Below, in pieces: positions 17,601-45,964 of a DNA stretch of 54,648 nt. A model generated the notes under the pieces. It saw only the letters and a list, made by a program, of their open reading frames with translations. It made no database searches and was not told the DNA's origin. The DNA is from a virus, in the IMG/VR virus record IMGVR_UViG_3300025433_000326, positions 1 to 54,648 of that record, one strand, 5' to 3'. Each line of letters opens with the position of its first letter. The stretch's first letter is position 1. The position numbers were made by a program, and so were the translations under genes.

Positions 17601-17810
17601 ACGTTTGTCAATCCACCAGCTGTTGGTCGATTCTCTTTTAGCCTCCATATTGTCTATACAAGCGGTACTCTCACGTTCCCTGCGAGCTTGCGCCACGTAT
17701 TCGACATCTTGCCAGACCTAATAGCAGGTCAAACCTACTTGTTCGTTATCAGCACCATTGACGGCGGCACCCGCTGGCTTTGTGACACCCGTAACTGGCC
17801 GACAGCATGA
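14607..17810 (+). CDS. Large tail spike/fibre protein
   Basis: A 1067-residue protein. Residues 58-150 (FTLYVNPFIGSDQF ... CGYSAHRPFRTINRALLEA) carry the N-terminal motif seen in cyanophage spikes, where a right-handed beta-helix usually follows, with repeated short turns over 150-650. Motifs such as VYVRRLVDIR and WGQTHVHTQSGF lie further on. The C-terminus is compact and beta-rich. It probably binds, and perhaps cuts, a surface polysaccharide. Its stop overlaps the next ATG by four bases. Confidence 0.75.
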   Translation: MARISLANAASGILNAFGPSGQARAKPQLAAMADLLRQLVGDANVAPGSGESIDPLQAPFTLYVNPFIGSDQFVAGYYNSFETTGTDQQIIDQKLKRISNQQMTCGYSAHRPFRTINRALLEAVIITSRSYYTFASAAAQVDCVRVCLSDAQHLYYTEPPTGTPTVWTDGYTPTKADLINFNPAGGGVIAPRYTSISGNDYRKCVIRPSWTPPAADLAADYSNAVALLQVTTSAYFREITFQDKLGQNESDHLAYCSGPASAAALDALYAKALAAFGTVADLNPALVVTRPTEYETVGPFPGNPQLSWDTVVGASPYILNCANRSQWGRGGVLWDGAKLGGLKSFVTAQFTNTSEQNDVNSWEVYNGSNWVTPADYDALIAADPNDTRAKFARSSRHITCINDGFVQEVSIFAIGTNYHNLVDTGGEITSSNGNNTFGGCGALATGYKSAAFPQDKNWDTSAVSVPLTPSVKTNNIRRIFIGTVSEVYTDDGGLILEGPADITSLEASGYSLAPGTQIWCETPADLTDPVRATLNGSPFNPAFPDTIGFVTGGGNNFPADGVGMVGRRVYVRRLVDIRATSERRAELVLGNTANSRIPETNFVLQTDPSRTGAGALFNATTEVLTCYSSSKTFLSGIDLAVRVVVQQGSYAANYANGGYYRAGQIVSYANKKWMALLDGYSVGTPPPEDRWGQTHVHTQSGFIPEGIAGAEGFPIVFDTDTDTAVISTTLGINWGTIFTSSGSVRDQYRSGPDYLGLHAFLRALGFSDANAHTALLPRVEADRQLDPTSATDFPTAPSGGAATGRANWPLEFRRPSTLRLSNHTWEWSGWGNYSKALPIAQKPLSAQNRFSYYFTNTAGGRVVPAGENEDGYRVSPRGLENIQTGAILAVNDIQGGPLDAPLAFDPNPTFGNLTVTNSLDIRGATFLTDDGPYLPVIGDATAEVRLRRLGINADDDPDFDLFLNGSARGNVVDLGSGTAINCQLGNYFTRAMAGNLTFTFVNPPAVGRFSFSLHIVYTSGTLTFPASLRHVFDILPDLIAGQTYLFVISTIDGGTRWLCDTRNWPTA

Positions 17811-20395
17811 ATGACAACATTATTGATCAGCACAAAGGAATTGGCTTGCCGAGAACAAGCAGCTTGATTCTGGACATTGACACTGAAGCGGTAACACCAG
17901 GTAATCTGGATTTCACGCTGTCAATGGCAGCCAAAGTTGATTTCACCGACAACTACACAGTTCGCGTAATTACCGCGCCTGCGTCAGACTATGCCGTGGA
18001 TTGGGGGGATGGAAACGAAACAATACAATCAAGCTCTTCAGCCTTGCTTCATACATACGCTACTGCAGGAGAGTACCAAATAACAATCTATGGGCTGCTG
18101 GGAGGAGGTATCCATCCTTGGTTTGATGAAGGCGCTAGCGCAAATCTAATTACTGGAGTAGGTGCTACAGATAATGCGCGGTTTGCCAATATATTTACGG
18201 CTTTCAGGGAGTGCTCAAACCTCGCATCAGTAAGTTCCAGCTTTGAACTTGGAGGCGCAACTGTCCTTGCCTCTACTTGGGCATCTTGTGCTAACTTAAC
18301 ATCTTTCCCTTTAATTGATTTCAGTCAAGTTACTGTACTGGCTAGTGGCTGGCCTGGGGTTGTTAACTGGCGTAGTAATAACACTTTAGGTGTATGGGAA
18401 AACTGCACAGGGCTTACCAGCTTCCCGCTCATCAATACCAGTAATGTCACTGTCTTTAGCCAAACCTGGCGGGACTGCAATAGCCTTAATTCGTTCCCGT
18501 TGATTGACACAAGTAAAGGGACTGACTTTTACTTTACCTGGGCTCGCTGCACTAGCCTTACTTCATTCGCGTTGATTGACACAAGTAAAGGGACTAACTT
18601 TCAGGCGGCCTGGCGGGAATGCAATAGCCTTAATTCGTTCCCGTTGATTAACACAAGTGAAGGGACTAACTTTCGCTTAACCTGGAGTAGCTGCAATAGC
18701 CTTAATTCATTCCCGTTGATTAATACGAGCAATGGCACTAACTTTAACCAAGCCTGGCGGGACTGCAATAGCCTTACTTCGTTCCCGTTGATTGACACAA
18801 GTAAAGGGACTGACTTTAGCTATGCCTGGCGGTACTGCTATAGCCTTACTTCATTCCCGTTGATTGACACAAGTAATGGCATTAACTTTAGCGACGCTTG
18901 GAATAACTGCAATAGCCTTAGTTCATTCCCGTTGATTGATACAAGTAAAGGGACTAACTTTAACTCAACCTGGCGGGACTGCAATAGCCTTACTTCGTTC
19001 CCGTTGATTGACACAAGTAAAGGGACTGACTTTAGCTATGCCTGGCGGTACTGCTATAGCCTTACTTCATTCCCGTTGATTGACACAAGTAATGGCATTA
19101 ACTTTAGCGGCGCTTGGAATAACTGCAATAGCCTTAATTCGTTCCCGTTGATTGACACAAGTAATGGCACTAACTTTGCCTCAACCTGGTGGTACTGCAC
19201 TAGCCTTAGTTCATTCCCGTTGATTGATACAAGTAAAGGGACTAACTTTGACTCAACCTGGCGGGACTGCAATAGCCTTAATTCATTCCCGTTGATTGAC
19301 ACAAGTAATGGCACTAACTTTGCCTCAACCTGGCTGAACTGCACTAGCCTTAATTCATTCCCGTTGATTAATACGAGCAATGGCACTAACTTTGGCGAAA
19401 CCTGGCGGGACTGCAATAGCCTTAATTCATTCCCGTTGATTGACACAAGTAATGGCACTAACTTTGCCTTAACCTGGTATAACTGCACTAGCCTTAATTC
19501 ATTCCCGTTGATTAATACGAGCAATGGCACTAACTTTGGCGAAACCTGGCGGAACTGCACTAGCCTTAATTCGTTCCCGTTGATTGACACAAGTAATGGC
19601 ACTAACTTTGCCTTAACCTGGAATAACTGCACTAGCCTTACTTCATTCCCGTTGATTAATACGAGTAAAGGCATTAACTTTAACTCAACCTGGCGGGACT
19701 GCACTAGCCTTAGTTCATTCCCGTTGATTGATACAAGCAATGGCACTTACTTTAACGAAACCTGGTGGAACTGCACTAGCCTTAGTTCATTCCCGTTGAT
19801 TAATACGAGCAATGGCACTAACTTTGACTCAACCTGGCGGAACTGCAATAGCCTTAATTCATTCCCGTTGATTAATACGAGCAATGGCACTAACTTTCGC
19901 TTAGCCTGGCTGAACTGCACTAGCCTTAATTCATTCCCGTTGATTAATACGAGCAATGCGACCAACTTTACCTCAACCTGGCTGAACTGCACTAGCCTTA
20001 ATTCATTCCCGTTGATTGATACAAGTAATGTCACTGACTTTCCCAGAGCCTGGAAAAACTGCAATAGCCTTAATTCATTCCCGTTGATTAATACGAGTAA
20101 TGCGACCACGTTCGTAAGCGCATGGAGCGAATGCACGGCTTTAGCAGACTTCCCAGCTGGTGTATTCAACGGCTGTCCCTGTACGGATTTCACGATGGCC
20201 TTCAACGACTGTGCCCTGACTGCCACCTCTGTCAACAATATCCTTATATCTATTGAGTCAAACGGCACGTCAAATGGAACGCTTGAACTAAGTAATGTCT
20301 TGTCATTGGGCACCAACGCCGCTCCAACAGGCGCTGGCATCACCGCCAGAAACGCCCTGATCTCTCGCGGCTGGACCGTGAACGTCAACCCCTAG
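17807..20395 (+). CDS. PKD / BspA-type leucine-rich-repeat surface protein
   Basis: An 862-residue protein. Residues 45-97 form a PKD-like domain (YAVDWGDG ... HTYATAGEYQITIYG). From about 200 to 780 there are 24 consecutive 24-residue repeats of the BspA/DUF285 type, with fixed residues SFPLI, TS, F, W, C and SL. A degenerate repeat and a short cap end it. It has no signal peptide, and is coupled to the spike gene by an ATGA overlap, so it is probably a virion adhesin or receptor-binding protein. The gene is strikingly AT-rich for this window, a sign of recent transfer. A bacterial cell-surface adhesin carried as cargo is the alternative. Confidence 0.75.
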   Translation: MNDNIIDQHKGIGLPRTSSLILDIDTEAVTPGNLDFTLSMAAKVDFTDNYTVRVITAPASDYAVDWGDGNETIQSSSSALLHTYATAGEYQITIYGLLGGGIHPWFDEGASANLITGVGATDNARFANIFTAFRECSNLASVSSSFELGGATVLASTWASCANLTSFPLIDFSQVTVLASGWPGVVNWRSNNTLGVWENCTGLTSFPLINTSNVTVFSQTWRDCNSLNSFPLIDTSKGTDFYFTWARCTSLTSFALIDTSKGTNFQAAWRECNSLNSFPLINTSEGTNFRLTWSSCNSLNSFPLINTSNGTNFNQAWRDCNSLTSFPLIDTSKGTDFSYAWRYCYSLTSFPLIDTSNGINFSDAWNNCNSLSSFPLIDTSKGTNFNSTWRDCNSLTSFPLIDTSKGTDFSYAWRYCYSLTSFPLIDTSNGINFSGAWNNCNSLNSFPLIDTSNGTNFASTWWYCTSLSSFPLIDTSKGTNFDSTWRDCNSLNSFPLIDTSNGTNFASTWLNCTSLNSFPLINTSNGTNFGETWRDCNSLNSFPLIDTSNGTNFALTWYNCTSLNSFPLINTSNGTNFGETWRNCTSLNSFPLIDTSNGTNFALTWNNCTSLTSFPLINTSKGINFNSTWRDCTSLSSFPLIDTSNGTYFNETWWNCTSLSSFPLINTSNGTNFDSTWRNCNSLNSFPLINTSNGTNFRLAWLNCTSLNSFPLINTSNATNFTSTWLNCTSLNSFPLIDTSNVTDFPRAWKNCNSLNSFPLINTSNATTFVSAWSECTALADFPAGVFNGCPCTDFTMAFNDCALTATSVNNILISIESNGTSNGTLELSNVLSLGTNAAPTGAGITARNALISRGWTVNVNP
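18413..20140 (+). repeat. 24 tandem 72-bp repeats inside the LRR gene
   Basis: Each unit encodes 24 residues and the codons of the fixed residues are almost identical between units. Changes cluster at the pair before TW/AW, the pair after W, and Asp/Asn after PLI. The blocks at about 18771-18930 and 18987-19146 are near-identical copies 216 bp (three units) apart. Confidence 0.9.
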
Positions 20396-27621: not shown

Positions 27622-27991
27622 AGAACTGGGGAGTGTGCCGCGGCGGCCGTCTGACCGCTTTGGTCATGGCACACTAGCACTACGATTCAGCCATATCGGT
27701 AGCAGGCCGCACCGTCTGGGGCGCTGCCGGGGCCCGGCCGGTCACCTTCGATGAAGGAGCAGCTCCAGGCTGCTGCAACCTGGAGTAGGTCAGGTACGCT
27801 CGCCATCCAGGCATCCACCAAGACAACAAAGGCCCCGCCAACAGGCGGAGCCGATGCTGCCCCTTGCGGGGCCACGGAGGCGGCCCGCTCCCCAGCGAAC
27901 AACGTCTCCGTAGCGCCGCGATCCTATCGCAGGCACTGCCGGATAGAGGCCCAGTAGGGCCAGGGACCAGCAAACCTATCGCTATTCACGA
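27622..27991. promoter_or_regulatory. Divergent early control region
   Basis: The 370 bases between the ERF operon and the initiator gene contain no convincing gene. They hold two adjacent operator-like sites near the ERF start and a hairpin cluster at 27831-27875 (GGCCCCGC with GCGGGGCC; on the minus strand CCGCC-TGTT-GGCGG followed by TTTGTTGT, a weak terminator). A copy of CCGCTCCCCAGCGAA, the leader motif of the 44-48 kb genes, lies near 27886-27900. Promoters for both directions must lie here, but I see no clear -35/-10 pair. Confidence 0.5.
27652..27682. promoter_or_regulatory. Tandem operator upstream of the ERF operon
   Basis: TGACC-N5-GGTCA (27652-27666) directly abuts TGGCACACTAGCACTA (27667-27682). 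The second site matches 14 of 16 bases of one in front of the LexA-like gene at 39841-39856. Confidence 0.5.
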
Positions 27992-29635
27992 ATGAGCAGA
28001 GCAGAGCAGAACACGGGTGAAACCTTCCAGCTGGAGAGGCAGCGGTTTGTACTTCTACCTCTTGAACTTCTGGCCAGTTGTTCATCCAAGGCGCGAAAGC
28101 CGCTGGTCTTTGTTTATAGCTGGCTTTGGTATCACGCGGGGCAAATTGATTCGTATCCATCCGTATCTCGGCTGAGTTTGGAATGCGGGATGAGCATGGC
28201 CGACATCCGGGCAGCGATCAAGGAACTGCTGTTTGAGGGCTGGATCACGTGCAAAAAAACAACGGGCCCAAAAGGGGTGAAAACGTACCGGATCACGGCC
28301 GATTACAGCACCATAAAACGACCACGGAAGCAAAAAAAAGGCAGTTTTCCTCCCGCTGTCTCTCCAGTCCCTGACAGCGATTTGCCTATGCACCCCCTAC
28401 CCATGGGTACCCCCTACCCACAGGTACCCCCCCCTACCCATGGGTACCCCCTACCCACAGGTACCCCCCCCTACCCACAGGTACCCCCTAAACGGCCTGA
28501 AAATGACCCTCCAGGCACCCCCTTGCAATCGTCTGAAGCGTATAAAACAGCTGAGACTGATGCCCTAGCCTGGAATCTCAGCGATTCAAACCCTGAAAAA
28601 AAAGTTTTCCACAGGCCTGTTTTTGAAGGCTCCTGCGCGGCCTGTTCCTCAAAAAACGGTCACCCCGCGTCAACCGCTGAAACCTGTTCCTGTAGAAGGG
28701 ATCCCAGCGAAAGCCCAACACCTGAAACAGGGGGCTTGACACGTAAGATACCCTTAGAAGAATCTAGAATAGATTCTTCCTCTAACTCTTTATCTACTTC
28801 TAAGGTTACTTTCTTAAAACCATATAAGCTTGGTCATCAACAAAAACACGCTGCTAACGATTCAACGGCAGCGGCATGCGACCCCGACATAAGCAACCCA
28901 GGGCAAGTTCAGCCCGTCCCACCGCTCACCACCTTGCCGCCGCCGCAAATCGTGGTACAGTCGGCAAGCAACCTCACCGCTCCCCAGCAACATGATTCCC
29001 CACTCAGCTCCCTCCCACCCTGCGCAGAGCCGTACCGCCACCTGCTCGCCCAGTGGTGGGCCTCCCGCAGCTTCAGGCACCGAAGCCTCCAGCCTGATCA
29101 GCCTCTCGCCCAGGCCGACCTGGACGCCATCAGCCTCGCTCACGCTCACGGCGTCCTAGAGCCCTTCCTCGCACAAGCGGCCGCGGCCGGCTGGAAGTCT
29201 CTTGCCTATCGCGTCAAGATTCGCATCCAGCAGCTACAAGCAGGACCAGCAGCAGCCGCCGACTTTGATCGGCTCCGCTCCCAGTACCTCGCTGCTCCAA
29301 ATCGCGTTCCTTGTCAATCTCTGCCCCGTGCGCAGAAAGAGCTCGCCCTCATCCTCAAAGAGGGCTACTCCATTGACCAGATCCTCGCCGCGCTCACCGC
29401 TGAAACGGCTGCGCAAGCCGCAAAGCTCAGCAAAGCTGAGTTCTGCCCTTCCATGCCAGACATCGCTCGATGGCTCAAGGAACGCCGCTTTGCTGCCTAC
29501 ATCCAGGCCCCAACCTCAGAGCCGCGCATCCTCTCCCCTGCTGACTTCACCCATGCCATAGACGAAGACGGTGAGCCCGATCCCTTCGCTTACTCCAACT
29601 ACCTCGAAGCCTGCAAGCTACAGGGCCTCATCTGA
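27992..29635 (+). CDS. Phage replication initiator (O/DnaD-like)
   Basis: A 547-residue protein. Residues 15-105 form a winged helix (FVLLPLELL ... SYPSVSRLSLECGMSMADIRAAIKELLFEGWI). The middle is low-complexity and Pro/Ser-rich, and its DNA carries iterons. The last 220 residues are helical with two DnaD-like or helicase-loading segments. This design, an initiator whose gene contains the origin, matches lambda O. It begins the plus-strand early operon, and its stop overlaps the next ATG. Confidence 0.65.
   Translation: MSRAEQNTGETFQLERQRFVLLPLELLASCSSKARKPLVFVYSWLWYHAGQIDSYPSVSRLSLECGMSMADIRAAIKELLFEGWITCKKTTGPKGVKTYRITADYSTIKRPRKQKKGSFPPAVSPVPDSDLPMHPLPMGTPYPQVPPPTHGYPLPTGTPPYPQVPPKRPENDPPGTPLQSSEAYKTAETDALAWNLSDSNPEKKVFHRPVFEGSCAACSSKNGHPASTAETCSCRRDPSESPTPETGGLTRKIPLEESRIDSSSNSLSTSKVTFLKPYKLGHQQKHAANDSTAAACDPDISNPGQVQPVPPLTTLPPPQIVVQSASNLTAPQQHDSPLSSLPPCAEPYRHLLAQWWASRSFRHRSLQPDQPLAQADLDAISLAHAHGVLEPFLAQAAAAGWKSLAYRVKIRIQQLQAGPAAAADFDRLRSQYLAAPNRVPCQSLPRAQKELALILKEGYSIDQILAALTAETAAQAAKLSKAEFCPSMPDIARWLKERRFAAYIQAPTSEPRILSPADFTHAIDEDGEPDPFAYSNYLEACKLQGLI
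28397..28485 (+). repeat. Five origin iterons
   Basis: CTACCCATGGGTACC or CTACCCACAGGTACC occurs at 28397, 28414, 28434, 28451 and 28471. Spacing alternates 17, 20, 17, 20 bp. Neither 17 nor 20 is a multiple of three, so the repeat is kept as DNA rather than as protein. Confidence 0.8.
28397..28860 (+). other. Putative replication origin inside the initiator gene
   Basis: After the iterons come a TTTTCCACA DnaA-type box (28605-28613) and an AT-rich stretch (about 28740-28860). The latter includes the perfect inverted repeat GAAGAATCTA-GAA-TAGATTCTTC (28757-28779), a likely unwinding region. Confidence 0.6.
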
Positions 29636-30631: not shown

Positions 30632-31282
30632 ATGATCCACTCCCTTCCCGCCTGGCTTCACAACCATCCCGTCATGCCAGACGGCCGCGGCTATGTGTCC
30701 ACCGCTGGTGAGCCGATTCACCAAACCGCCCGGGAGATCCTGGCGACCATCCACCCGCATCACCGCCTACACGCTGAAAGGAACCTGATCGTGCTGCGCG
30801 CTTGCGTGGCCTATGCGACCAGCCGCTTTGATGCCGATCGGTCTGCTGGTGGCCTGTGGCAGCCGACAGCGGCACCATTCAGCGACCACCTGGAGGTGAT
30901 CGAGCCGCTGCTTGCTCACGGGTTCTGGGATCAGCTCACCTGTCACGCGGCACCGATTCACCTGCGGCACCGCCGGCTGATGGTGGCCACCACCGCCGAG
31001 CTATTGGTCAAGTTCCGCAATGGCGGCGACCTGGGCATCGCCACCGTCCAGACGGCGCCGCGTGACCAGCTCAACCCGATCCACGTCGAGGCTGAGCTTG
31101 GTGCTGCCCTGGCCCTACTGGGTGACTCCTGGGGCTGGTTTCCGTCGAGATCATTCGTGATCTATGCCCGCCCAGGCAAGACCACGGTGGAGCTCGTTGG
31201 AGTGGATCAAGCAATCGGCCACTGGGTTGATGCGCTCGATTCCCGCCGGTGGCTCATCAAAAACCTGCAGCGCACCGAATGA
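30632..31282 (+). CDS. Possible degenerate RecB/Cas4-like exonuclease
   Basis: A 216-residue protein. The C-terminal half follows the layout of RecB/Cas4-type PD-(D/E)XK nucleases (ELLVKFRNGGDLGIATVQT, then a helix EAELGAALALLGDSWGW, then SFVIYARPGKTTVELV). The expected ExK is not obvious (IATVQT), so activity is doubtful. The site, amid replication and recombination genes, would suit an exonuclease. Low certainty. Confidence 0.4.
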   Translation: MIHSLPAWLHNHPVMPDGRGYVSTAGEPIHQTAREILATIHPHHRLHAERNLIVLRACVAYATSRFDADRSAGGLWQPTAAPFSDHLEVIEPLLAHGFWDQLTCHAAPIHLRHRRLMVATTAELLVKFRNGGDLGIATVQTAPRDQLNPIHVEAELGAALALLGDSWGWFPSRSFVIYARPGKTTVELVGVDQAIGHWVDALDSRRWLIKNLQRTE

Positions 31283-32561: not shown

Positions 32562-33688
32562 GTTCACCGATCCATAGCGAGGAACGAGCGGAGGATTCGG
32601 TGCAACGCCTTGTTCTGTCCGATTCGGTGGAACTGTGGCTGGGCGATTGTCGGGAGATTGCGCCGAATCTTTCTGGCGTAGATTTACTGGTTGCAGATCC
32701 GCCCTATGGGATGGGGAAAAAGGGAATCATGCACGATGACATCTATGGGAAAAAGCTGGACGCCTTCCTCATGGAATGCTGGGGGGCTTGCCGTCCCTCT
32801 CTCAAGGACAACGCAAGTGCCTACATCTGGGGGCAATCGGAGGACTTGTGGCGGCTGTGGTATCGCGGGGGGCTGAACGACTCGGAAAGACTGACAATGC
32901 GAAATGAAATCGTGTGGAACAAGGGCAGCGCGCAAGGAATGGGTTCCGATCAACACCGGAGGTTTCCCACAGCAACGGAGCGCTGTCTGTTCTTCATGCT
33001 CGGAGAGCAGGGGTTCAACAACAACGCCGACAACTATTGGGAAGGGTGGGCACCGCTTCAATTATATTTGAAAGGCGAGCGTGATGCGATGGGATGGACA
33101 AGCGTTGAACTGAAACGGTTAGCGGGTCACTCGGCGAGCGGGCACGACCACTGGACGGGATTGTCGCAATGGATGTTCCCCACCCGTGAAACTTACGACG
33201 CATGGAAAGCGGCAGCAAGCGGCCAAGCATTCAAGCGGGAGCACGACGACCTGAAGCGGGAGCATGACGACCTGAAGCGGGAGCATGACGACCTGAAGCG
33301 GGAGTTCTACGCCACCCGCGCACACTTCGACAACGGACACCAGAACATGACCGATGTCTGGACGTATCCGAGAGTGAACGGCAAGGAGCGCCACGGCCAC
33401 GAATCACCCAAGCCGGTCGCGATGATGGCGCGAGCAGTGAAGACTAGCTGCCCCGAAGGTGGGCTCGTTCTCGACCCATTCATGGGGACGGCTCCCACCG
33501 CTATCGCGTGCATCCGAACAGGTCGCCGATTCATAGGGATAGAAAAAGACCCCGACCACTTCGAGACGGCGCGGAAGCGGATCGAGGCGGAACTCGCTCA
33601 GGGCGATCTATTTCTTAGACAGACGGACACCCTTAGCAATGCCCCCCACGCCCAACCTCAGCCCTCATTTCCCAGCGAGCTGGCCTGA
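32558..33688 (+). CDS. Beta-class DNA methyltransferase (N6-A or N4-C)
   Basis: A 376-residue enzyme. The catalytic DPPY is at 47-50 (motif IV) and the AdoMet-binding motif I comes late (LDPFMGTAPT, about 305-314, then GRRFIGIEKD), the permuted order of beta-class methylases. The region between holds the target recognition part plus a heptad KREHDDL repeated three times. No cognate endonuclease is adjacent, so it is probably a solitary phage methylase that protects DNA from host restriction or marks it for regulation. Confidence 0.85.
   Translation: MSSPIHSEERAEDSVQRLVLSDSVELWLGDCREIAPNLSGVDLLVADPPYGMGKKGIMHDDIYGKKLDAFLMECWGACRPSLKDNASAYIWGQSEDLWRLWYRGGLNDSERLTMRNEIVWNKGSAQGMGSDQHRRFPTATERCLFFMLGEQGFNNNADNYWEGWAPLQLYLKGERDAMGWTSVELKRLAGHSASGHDHWTGLSQWMFPTRETYDAWKAAASGQAFKREHDDLKREHDDLKREHDDLKREFYATRAHFDNGHQNMTDVWTYPRVNGKERHGHESPKPVAMMARAVKTSCPEGGLVLDPFMGTAPTAIACIRTGRRFIGIEKDPDHFETARKRIEAELAQGDLFLRQTDTLSNAPHAQPQPSFPSELA
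33233..33304 (+). repeat. 21-bp repeat in the methyltransferase gene
   Basis: Three full copies and a partial fourth of a 21-bp unit encoding KREHDDL, in frame. Copy number changes would lengthen a coiled-coil arm without breaking the gene. Confidence 0.85.
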
Positions 33689-36108: not shown

Positions 36109-37463
36109 CAGCAGGCGCGGATTGGGAGAGCGGCCGGTCCTGGCGGATCACCGATAAGGAGAGAGAGCAGATCGCTGAGATGCTGCAAGCCGGGCAAGGC
36201 GCCCGAGAGATTGCCGCCGCAACCAAGCGCAGCCTTCCCACGATCTACAACCACATGAGGGACATCAGAGCCGGGCGATTGCCGACAGGCGCGGCACGGA
36301 TCACCGATAAGGAGCGGAAGCAGATCGCTGAGATGCTGCAAGCCGGGCAAGGCGCCCAAGAGATTGCCGCCGCAACCAAGCGCAGCCTTCCCGCGATCTA
36401 CAGGCACATCAGCGACATCAAACCCGGGCGATTGCCGACAGGCGCGGCACGGATCACCGATAAGGAGCGGAAGCAGATCGCTGAGATGCTGCAAGCCGGG
36501 CAAGGCGCCCAAGAGATTGCCGCCGCAACCAAGCGCAGCCTCTCCACGATCTACAACCACATGAGGGACATCAGAAGAGCCGGGCGATTGCCGACAGGCG
36601 CGGCATGGATCACCGATAAGGAGCGGAAGCAGATCGCTGAGATGATGCAAGCCGGGCAAGGTGCCCGAGAGATTGCCGCCGCAACCAAGCGCAGCCTTCC
36701 CACGATCTACAGGCACATCAGCGACATCAAAGCCGGCCGATCGCCGGAAGAAGCCAGGCGGCGGTGGCGGCAACGCCGGGATCTGGAGGCGGGCGGTTCC
36801 GGCTGCCTGCCGGCTGATCAGCCTGTCAATGTGCCGCTGCTGATCGAGCGCTACGCCCTGGGGGCCTCGATCGGAAGCCTGGCCAGTAGTTTGCGGATCA
36901 GCTATCACCGTGTTCGAGCATTGATCGTTGATGCCGGGGTGCCAATCCGGCGAAATGGAGCCAGGGGGCCAGGCCCTGAGAGGAAAGGACACCTGTGGAC
37001 CACGGCAGAGGCCTCAGCCTGCCGCCGAATGATGGCCCAGGGCCAGCGCCAGGCAATCATCGGCATGGCGCTGGGGCGAAGTGAGGCCTCAATAGGGGCA
37101 TGGCTCTACGACCAGTCGAGGCCCGGCCGGCCCGAGCGCGCCGCCACGATCTCCCGCCGCCGCCGCGGTGACCTGCTCCCTGAAGAAACGCCAGAGGTGG
37201 AGGTGATGGATCGGATCGTTGCTGGTTGGCTGGATGGCGAAAGCGTGGTGGATCTGGCGGTTCGCCATCGCCTGCCGAGCCCGATCATCTCCGGTGTGCT
37301 GCGGCAGCGTGGTCACCATTCAAAGAAAGGCCGCAACCCGGCGAAGCTGAAGAAGCAGGCCCAGCAAGCCGCCCTGGCTACCTGCGCCAAGCACCTGCCG
37401 GCCTTTGGCGGTAACGAACTGGTCCTAGCTTCACTTCAGGCGCGAGCATCAGGCCGTGGCTGA
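36105..37463 (+). CDS. Tandem helix-turn-helix array protein
   Basis: A 452-residue protein from a TTG overlapping the ParB-like stop. Residues 14-220 are four near-identical 51-52-residue repeats, each a Hin/resolvase-type HTH (ITDKERKQIAEML-AGQGA-EIAAATKRS-IY-H). At least two more HTH-like segments follow (LIERYALGASIGSLASSL ... and MDRIVAGWLDGESVVDLAV). The Arg/Lys-rich linkers fit DNA contact. It stands just before small terminase, so it may recognise a repeated packaging or regulatory site. Confidence 0.7.
   Translation: MTAGADWESGRSWRITDKEREQIAEMLQAGQGAREIAAATKRSLPTIYNHMRDIRAGRLPTGAARITDKERKQIAEMLQAGQGAQEIAAATKRSLPAIYRHISDIKPGRLPTGAARITDKERKQIAEMLQAGQGAQEIAAATKRSLSTIYNHMRDIRRAGRLPTGAAWITDKERKQIAEMMQAGQGAREIAAATKRSLPTIYRHISDIKAGRSPEEARRRWRQRRDLEAGGSGCLPADQPVNVPLLIERYALGASIGSLASSLRISYHRVRALIVDAGVPIRRNGARGPGPERKGHLWTTAEASACRRMMAQGQRQAIIGMALGRSEASIGAWLYDQSRPGRPERAATISRRRRGDLLPEETPEVEVMDRIVAGWLDGESVVDLAVRHRLPSPIISGVLRQRGHHSKKGRNPAKLKKQAQQAALATCAKHLPAFGGNELVLASLQARASGRG
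36144..36758 (+). repeat. Four 153-156-bp tandem repeats encoding HTH units
   Basis: Units begin at 36144, 36297, 36450 and 36606. Units 1 and 3 share the recognition-helix end IYNHMRDI, units 2 and 4 share IYRHISDI, so the array has an A-B-A-B pattern. Confidence 0.9.
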
Positions 37464-39840: not shown

Positions 39841-39856
39841 TGGCACACCTGCACTA
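39841..39856. promoter_or_regulatory. Operator upstream of the LexA-like gene
   Basis: TGGCACACCTGCACTA, overlapping the sigma factor stop codon. A CATACT box (minus strand, about 39828-39833) just downstream could be the -10 of the repressor promoter, so binding here would be autoregulatory. Confidence 0.5.
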
Positions 39857-40735
39857 GCGTCGAAAGGTGCTGAACAGGCCCAGCTGGTCGCTTTCCCTGC
39901 CCTCCAAGCGTTCTCGCAGGTTGATGAGCCCGGAACGGCTGAGGCCTTTGGCCTGCTCCAGGCCCAGCCCCATCCCTCTGGCCACCTCGGCGAAGGTTTC
40001 GCCGTCAAGGCGCCGCAGCATCACCTCTTGCTGTTGTGGCCAGGGCGCCAGGGCGCAGCTGACTGCCTGCAATTGCTGCTGTCGCCGTGTTGAGGCATTG
40101 TTTGAGCTCGCCTGAATCGCTGTCAACAGCGTGTTGCTTTCGCTTTCGTCATCATTGATCAGGACATCCAGCGAGGCCTGCCTGTGGCAGGCTGCCGCCA
40201 GGGCCAGGGTCTGGAGGTCAGCAGGCGATAGATCCATCCCCGCCATTGCCTCTACATCGGTGGCCGGCCGGCCATGCTCAAGCTGGAACCGCTCCCGCCA
40301 CTGCCGCAGCTGGTGCATCCGTTCGCTTCGCTTCACCGGCACCCTGATGCCGTTGGCGGAATGGATCAACCGGATCATGCTCTGCCGGATCCAAGGCACG
40401 GCATAGGTCGAGAACTTGTAGCCGCGCATCGGGTCAAACTTTTCAACTGCTCGCGCCAGCCCGATCGAGCCCTCCTGGATCAGATCGGCGACATCCAGGG
40501 AGATGATGCCCGCGACATTGAAGGAGCGGCTGCACGTCACGACCAGCCGCATATTCCGGGCCACCATCTGCTCGCGGGACCGCAGCCCTGAACGCTTCAC
40601 CCGCAACGGGGCGTCAGCTGGCGACGGTGGCCAGTCTTGCCAGGCTCGAATGGCTCGGCCATGGATCAGTTGCTCTTCAAAGGAAGGGATTGGCAAGCGC
40701 GAGTACGCCTGTAGCTGATCGTCCAGCGAGCTCAC
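39854..40735 (-). CDS. Phage-encoded sigma-70 family factor
   Basis: A 293-residue protein from a GTG at 40735. Region 2 is well kept (MVARNMRLVV; DLIQEGSIGLARAVEKFDPMRGYKFSTYAVPWIRQ at 84-118), region 3 lies near 135-185, and region 4 near 225-285 with an HTH (FAEVARGMGLGLEQAKGLSRSGL). Region 1.1 is missing, as in group 2 and 3 sigmas. It redirects RNA polymerase to its own promoters. It sits on the opposite strand between terL and the portal gene, an added cassette with its own control. Confidence 0.85.
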   Translation of the reverse strand: MSSLDDQLQAYSRLPIPSFEEQLIHGRAIRAWQDWPPSPADAPLRVKRSGLRSREQMVARNMRLVVTCSRSFNVAGIISLDVADLIQEGSIGLARAVEKFDPMRGYKFSTYAVPWIRQSMIRLIHSANGIRVPVKRSERMHQLRQWRERFQLEHGRPATDVEAMAGMDLSPADLQTLALAAACHRQASLDVLINDDESESNTLLTAIQASSNNASTRRQQQLQAVSCALAPWPQQQEVMLRRLDGETFAEVARGMGLGLEQAKGLSRSGLINLRERLEGRESDQLGLFSTFRR

Positions 40736-44494: not shown

Positions 44495-45661
44495 TTAAGT
44501 GCTTTTGGGTTTGAGAACACGAAAAATGGATTGCCCGACTTTTTTCCCAAGCTCAGCAGGGACTGCATTTCCAAGTTGGCGCATTACTTCACCCCAAGAG
44601 CCTTCAAAGTCAAAGTCATCAGGAAATGTTTGAATTCTAGCGCTTTCACGAACAGTAAAGTAACGAACACTTCCATCTTCAAAACGAATCATATTCTCGC
44701 CTCCCGGAATACCATGCCCTCCAGCCTTCAACGCCTTGGAAGGCTCGTCAATATAACTGCCTGTATGGCCGGGATAGATTTTGGCACCACCTTTAAAAAC
44801 ATGATGGTTAAATTCATTAGCTTTTTTAGATTCAGGGTTAGGGAGATCTGAAATGGCATCGCGAACTGTGACCCATGGCTCCAACTCCGGTTCAAACATT
44901 CCATATTTTTGCTTTAACCTTTCTACTCTATTCTCTGTTTTTTCGTCCATTTTTGAGCATTGAACTTTATGCTTTTTCCAGTATTCTTTTGTAACCCATT
45001 TACTCCAGAGCAAAGCGTCCTCGGAGTGTGTTGACTGAGGAAACGACCAGTTTGCATCAACGTCTGACCTGAAACCAACGATAAATACCCGCTCTCTTTT
45101 TTGAGGGACGCCATAGTCTGCTGCATTTACAAGACGATACAATACGTTATATTCGAGATCTGCATACTTATTCTTAGTATGGTGTTTCTCTAATCGCTCT
45201 CGATGCTTTTCCCATTCTTCATTCCTTTTCTTTTCTATCGAGGGATATTGCAATTGTAATACTATATATTCAAAATATTCGAAAAAGCTTTTTCTCAACA
45301 AGCCTTTTACATTTTCAAATACGAATGCTCTTGGTTTTTTCTCTCTAATAGCCCTAACGGCTTCTGGAAACATATCTCTGGCGTCATCGTGGCCATTCGC
45401 TTTGCCGCCAAGGGAGAAAGGCTGGCAAGGTGGCCCACCTGATATTAATTCTATTGTTTCTGGTACGCTTAAATAATCGAACTTGGTTACATCACCTTCA
45501 TATACTCCAGCCCCCCGAGTAAGCAATTTATTTGCTCTTAGAGTTCGGCAAGCATCTTTGTTAAATTCAACTACTGCCTTTGGAGTAAAGCCGGCGCTGT
45601 GAAGCCCTAACGCTAACCCACCTGCACCTGCGAACAATTCAATTGAAGACATTTTAGCCAT
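44495..45661 (-). CDS. 5-methylcytosine DNA methyltransferase
   Basis: A 388-residue enzyme with all main motifs: FAGAGGLALGL (I, 10-20), GGPPCQPFS (IV, catalytic C79), FENVKG (VI), PQKRERVFIVG (VIII) and QLGNAVPAELG (X). The gene is much more AT-rich than its neighbours, with AT-rich flanks, so it was probably acquired recently. No endonuclease is next to it. It sits 44 bases downstream of a leader element that elsewhere precedes tiny genes, as if inserted there. Role: protection against restriction, or an orphan methylase. Confidence 0.9.
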   Translation of the reverse strand: MAKMSSIELFAGAGGLALGLHSAGFTPKAVVEFNKDACRTLRANKLLTRGAGVYEGDVTKFDYLSVPETIELISGGPPCQPFSLGGKANGHDDARDMFPEAVRAIREKKPRAFVFENVKGLLRKSFFEYFEYIVLQLQYPSIEKKRNEEWEKHRERLEKHHTKNKYADLEYNVLYRLVNAADYGVPQKRERVFIVGFRSDVDANWSFPQSTHSEDALLWSKWVTKEYWKKHKVQCSKMDEKTENRVERLKQKYGMFEPELEPWVTVRDAISDLPNPESKKANEFNHHVFKGGAKIYPGHTGSYIDEPSKALKAGGHGIPGGENMIRFEDGSVRYFTVRESARIQTFPDDFDFEGSWGEVMRQLGNAVPAELGKKVGQSIFRVLKPKST

Positions 45662-45911: not shown

Positions 45912-45964
45912 CAGCTGGGGAGCGGTGGGGCAAGTGCCAGACAAGCTCTGGCGGGCTGTTGGTG
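45912..45964 (-). promoter_or_regulatory. Leader element with hairpin
   Basis: On the minus strand: ACCAACAGCCC, hairpin GCCAGA-GCTTG-TCTGGC (45952-45936), then CCCACCGCTCCCCAGC (45929-45914), then ATG at 45911. Compared with the copy at 45720-45736, the loop GCTTG is kept and two stem pairs change together (A-T to G-C). Confidence 0.6.

Follow-up and report, generated by a model that had tools for sequence, protein, structure and literature searches.

In an uncultured phage, a gene for an O-like replication initiator carries a series of short, regularly spaced repeats between the two domains that it encodes. Do these repeats belong to an origin of replication, or do they serve the protein, its expression or its messenger RNA? 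The stretch of DNA analysed here (the window) comprises 54,648 bp and is a complete virus record of IMG/VR; its relevant features are collected in Table 1. In our assessment, the locus is very likely a theta-type origin that, as in lambda, is nested within its own initiator gene, with binding, unwinding and replication as its putative functions. This origin probably extends from 28393 to about 28994.

Table 1. Features of the initiator gene and of the candidate origin (window coordinates)
Feature	Position	Strand	Remarks
Replication initiator gene, O-like, 547 aa	27992..29635	+	phrog_391, phrog_270 matches
N-terminal winged-helix domain (predicted)	27992..28378	+	recognition helix ~residues 69-82; AlphaFold2 model
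C-terminal all-helical domain (predicted), presumed helicase-recruiting part	29003..29632	+	conserved in relatives; AlphaFold2
Iteron array, five dyads	28393..28490	+	cores at 28399, 28416, 28436, 28453, 28473
TTTTCCACA, DnaA-box-like	28605..28613	+	not conserved in relatives
AT-rich tract, candidate DNA unwinding element	28741..28860		66% A+T
Perfect 10-bp inverted repeat, 3-nt spacer	28757..28779		GAAGAATCTA-GAA-TAGATTCTTC
Box 2, DNA block conserved in relatives	28949..28994 (about)	+	ATCGTGGTACAGT...CGCTCCCCAGCAACATG
CGCTCCCCAGCGA motif, upstream copy	27886..27898	+	~105 bp 5' of initiator ATG

The initiator gave profile matches to phrog_391 ("replication initiation O-like", 6e-7) and to phrog_270 (3e-6), and both were matched by all ten initiator family members. 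The O-like matches cover the N-terminal part of the protein and the linker, which is rich in proline and glycine. AlphaFold2 predicts, with moderate confidence, a winged helix for the N-terminal domain; an HTH_36 match in the same region is weak and lies under the cut-off. The nearest solved fold is the N-terminal domain of DnaD (2v79), a primosomal winged helix, and a weak DnaD-like PHROG match was obtained as well. The initiator nevertheless differs from DnaD, as identity is 11% (E 3.4e-3) and no DnaD C-terminal match was detected in it up to E 10.

The C-terminal domain is 49-53% identical to the corresponding domains of relatives (see below). Family and fold searches with this domain gave no match to anything known, and its AlphaFold2 model has a pLDDT of 79 with a pTM of only 0.47. 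Among the proteins scanned, none was recognised as a P-like or DnaC-like helicase loader, and ORFs downstream of the initiator had no match to families of known function. One downstream gene, at 30632-31282 (+), is kept nearby in five relatives (48-52% identity) and is a candidate replication partner.

Both in the window and in relatives, the candidate origin parts are located between the N- and C-terminal domains. The pattern CCTACCCAYRGGTACCCC has five exact matches spanning 28396-28487 (starts at 28396, 28413, 28433, 28450 and 28470), which bears out the five iterons with alternating spacing (17, 20, 17 and 20 bp) reported by the first-pass annotation. Outside the array, the pattern is absent from the whole record, in which a reversed control pattern has no match either; a search for the exact pattern across IMG/VR did not find it elsewhere. 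A tandem-repeat finder described the region 28393-28490 as 2.6 copies of a 37-bp unit with 96% matches. Such near duplication is what would be left by tandem expansion of a proline-rich low-complexity linker with no role at the DNA level, and the Pro/Gly-rich linker encoded there, together with the proneness of GC-rich repeats to slippage, fits that explanation. On the contrary, successive iteron cores fall in frames 2, 1, 0, 2 and 1 of the initiator ORF and encode shifting peptides. Since 17 and 20 both equal 2 modulo 3, the cores rotate through the frame and break its period, as had been claimed of the latter, and the array is therefore not a peptide repeat. Shared 8-mer pairs number 110, versus a mean of 2.6 (maximum 24) when synonymous codons are redrawn from the whole gene and a mean of 23 (maximum 89) when codons are shuffled within the linker only. 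Chance is rejected under both schemes (p ~2e-4); palindrome counts with codons permuted inside the linker did not discriminate. Linker expansion is also at odds with the relatives, in which synonymous change is suppressed and dyads with paired spacing are retained despite changed cores, and we regard it as extremely unlikely.

The full-length initiator had no match among cultured phages, no cultured phage record encoding it was found, and single-sequence scans of viral and genome contigs gave no match. Relatives were reached via a portal-gene scan, a search of the records so retrieved and an alignment-based scan. These are about 13 IMG/VR phages with initiators 42-45% identical to that of the window. 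In place of the window iterons, they carry about six short dyads with C/G arms between the two domains; beyond these come an AT-rich tract, then an inverted repeat and finally box 2. Alternation of short and long spacing, as in the window, is clearest in relative L077, where dyad centres are 16, 21, 16, 19 and 16 bp apart. With the automatic dyad finder, the complete paired pattern emerged in some relatives only (L072 and L077); in others, dyads were missed or displaced.

Iteron cores differ by lineage. The core is ACCCAYRGGT in the window and CCCGTTACGGG in L067 and L090; the rest have CCCC..AGGGG types, with CCCCAGGGG-like, CCCACAGGGG-like and CCCAGAGGGG-like variants. The recognition-helix sequence is CGMSMADIR in the window and TGMKEDDVR in L067 and L090; in the rest it is mostly CGMKERDI/VR. 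By sequence comparison, recognition-helix residues and iteron cores thus diverge together, across three helix classes only. Such joint divergence is expected of an initiator and its own iterons.

Conservation of the region is independent of its coding function. Five representative relatives were compared for synonymous change, with correction for amino acid and pair. The ratio of observed to expected change is 0.36 for the iterons, 0.37 for the AT-rich tract and 0.39 for box 2, versus 1.17 and 0.93 for the flanking N- and C-terminal domains. Outside the conserved blocks, contiguous blocks of equal size reach 0.65-0.68 at the lowest. These deficits are significant in the block test. Because the blocks were drawn after the profile had been viewed, which makes the p-values post hoc (above all for box 2), and because a gene-wide sliding synonymous scan of the five representatives by summed deficit gave no window at the 1% family-wide threshold, effect size carries more weight here than p-values. 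Together with codon resampling, the suppressed synonymous change in the iteron block upholds the earlier suggestion of selection at the DNA level. The relatives likewise support placement of an origin in the initiator gene, originally delimited to 28397-28860, but the constraint runs about 130 bp further, to box 2. In relatives, an 11-bp inverted repeat lies after the AT-rich tract and before box 2. Its pairing is kept through two-sided changes in three cells; 4 of 500 shuffles scored as high.

The AT-rich stretch and the perfect inverted repeat that had been noted in the window were both found. At 66% A+T (versus 39.5% overall), the tract ranks in the top 0.3% of 120-mers. It lies about 250 bp from the iterons in the window, whereas the two adjoin in relatives and in lambda. 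An inverted repeat comparable to that of the window occurs in 0.3% of shuffled 370-bp regions, and a handful are present elsewhere in the window. The first-pass annotation had also included the TTTTCCACA box. This box is indeed present, as a single copy in the window, and at least one copy arises in 26 of 100 shuffled windows; taken alone, it is weak evidence. It is missing from all ten relatives examined, and in nine of them no DnaA box at up to one mismatch was found in the open frame of the gene and the 300 bp before it; the single such match, in L070, is upstream of the initiator gene. Its lack of conservation leaves a role of DnaA unsupported. Conserved DnaA boxes, as expected of a DnaA-dependent origin, are not seen, and the box was rejected as a conserved element. 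Cumulative GC skew, proposed as a check, has no clean turning point at the candidate origin and was uninformative.

Box 2 reads ATCGTGGTA...CGCTCCCCAGC-RACATG in most relatives and also holds a TANNNT sequence; it may be a promoter, a binding site or a component of the origin. Copies of the CGCTCCCCAGC motif start at 27886 and 28978 (+), flanking the origin, and at 45924, 46168 and 47250 (-). The minus-strand copies are found directly 5' of ATG, after CAC, at three ORFs at 45.9-47.3 kb. Allowing up to one mismatch, CGCTCCCCAGCRA has five matches in the window versus 0.54 expected, and relatives contain similar CGCTCCCCAGC copies 5' of ATG codons. Cluster K mycobacteriophages reportedly possess start-associated sequences, a short phage-wide motif just 5' of start codons. 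The CCACCGCTCCCCAGC-ATG arrangement resembles these in position; it differs in host and in sequence, and one copy here lies within the initiator gene near the origin.

This motif bears on two further explanations. The conserved blocks might act at the level of mRNA instead of DNA, as hairpins, in attenuation or as an internal start; presence in box 2 of TANNNT and of a motif that precedes the ATG codons of other genes in these phages fits that explanation. On the contrary, loops of the iteron dyads are near zero, too tight for RNA hairpins. The out-of-frame ORF that follows box 2 has 55 aa in the window versus 163-181 aa in relatives, and an additional gene at this place is unsupported. An mRNA role of the blocks as a whole is very unlikely in our view, and box 2 by itself may have one. 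Alternatively, the repeats might be an operator array through which the winged-helix protein controls expression of its own gene, replication beginning elsewhere. Winged-helix folds are common in repressors, and the CGCTCCCCAGC motif occurs both upstream of and within the initiator gene. Such an operator would have to lie about 400 bp into the coding region, followed by an inverted repeat and by an AT-rich tract conserved at the DNA level, and the profile matches of the protein are to phage replication initiators, not to repressors. We consider an operator array improbable.

The nested origin is best compared with lambda O/ori-lambda. In lambda, taken as a control, four annotated iterons lie 20, 24 and 23 bp apart inside O; beyond them come an AT-rich tract and then an inverted repeat. 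The locus agrees with lambda in the placement of the candidate origin within the initiator gene and of the dyad iterons behind the N-terminal domain, with AT-rich DNA and an inverted repeat further on. The proposed lambda-like layout with new iterons is thus corroborated by the O-like winged helix and the DNA elements, and relatives concur. The iterons themselves have another sequence, and their cores of about 10 bp are spaced by 17 and 20 bp, in contrast to the 18-19-bp iterons of lambda. Further differences are a C-terminal domain with no recognisable relation, absence of a recognisable P gene, and the additional box 2. Origins of Stx phages contain six iterons, and additional iterons lengthen the O protein (PMC7466680). 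These lambdoid origins (P27, 933W) resemble most relatives analysed here in iteron number; they belong to close relatives of lambda, whereas the present initiators are O-like by profile in the N-terminus and linker only.

In lambda, O dimers bound to iterons form the O-some, which precedes the P-DnaB step, and transcription across the origin is an activating step (PMC3985674). By analogy, the N-terminal winged helix of our phage would bind the short dyad iterons, probably as one dimer each, and the short and long spacing would sort dyads into pairs. The bound array might wrap DNA into an O-some-like complex, in which the AT-rich tract would be opened. The C-terminal domain would then bring in the host replicative helicase, either directly or via a loader.

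The host itself is probably a cyanobacterium. This follows from the large terminase, whose best-covered matches in cultured phages are cyanophages (about 29% identity), and from a phage sigma-70 factor (39854-40735, -), whose best NCBIfam match is cyanobacterial RpoD-like (1.5e-40, below the model cut-off). No terminase relatives were found in genome contigs, and no host genome was obtained. Several other repeats were observed in the window. An 862-aa protein encoded at 17807-20395 (+), an AT-richer segment, contains about 23 tandem 24-aa repeats with a 72-bp period. Within one protein encoded at 36144-36746 there are about four tandem 51-aa helix-turn-helix repeats that match at 91% in DNA. 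Near-exact 21-bp repeats in a DNA methyltransferase gene (33233-33304) encode KREHDDL heptads. A cytosine-5 DNA methyltransferase gene at 44495-45661 (-) is located in an island (44.5-45.7 kb) whose conspicuous AT-richness suggests recent import of this segment.

Since both halves lie in one gene, site and reader would travel together on recombination. It is possible, though rather doubtful, that recognition helix and nested iterons switch specificity jointly and that origin type thereby constitutes an exclusion or incompatibility group among co-infecting relatives. The locus is a well-supported candidate origin, backed by comparative evidence, for a family of uncultured phages with probable cyanobacterial hosts. 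Together with its relatives it forms a natural set of matched initiators and iterons for studying how DNA-recognition specificity shifts under a constant layout. A working origin of this type could serve in building replicons for picocyanobacteria.
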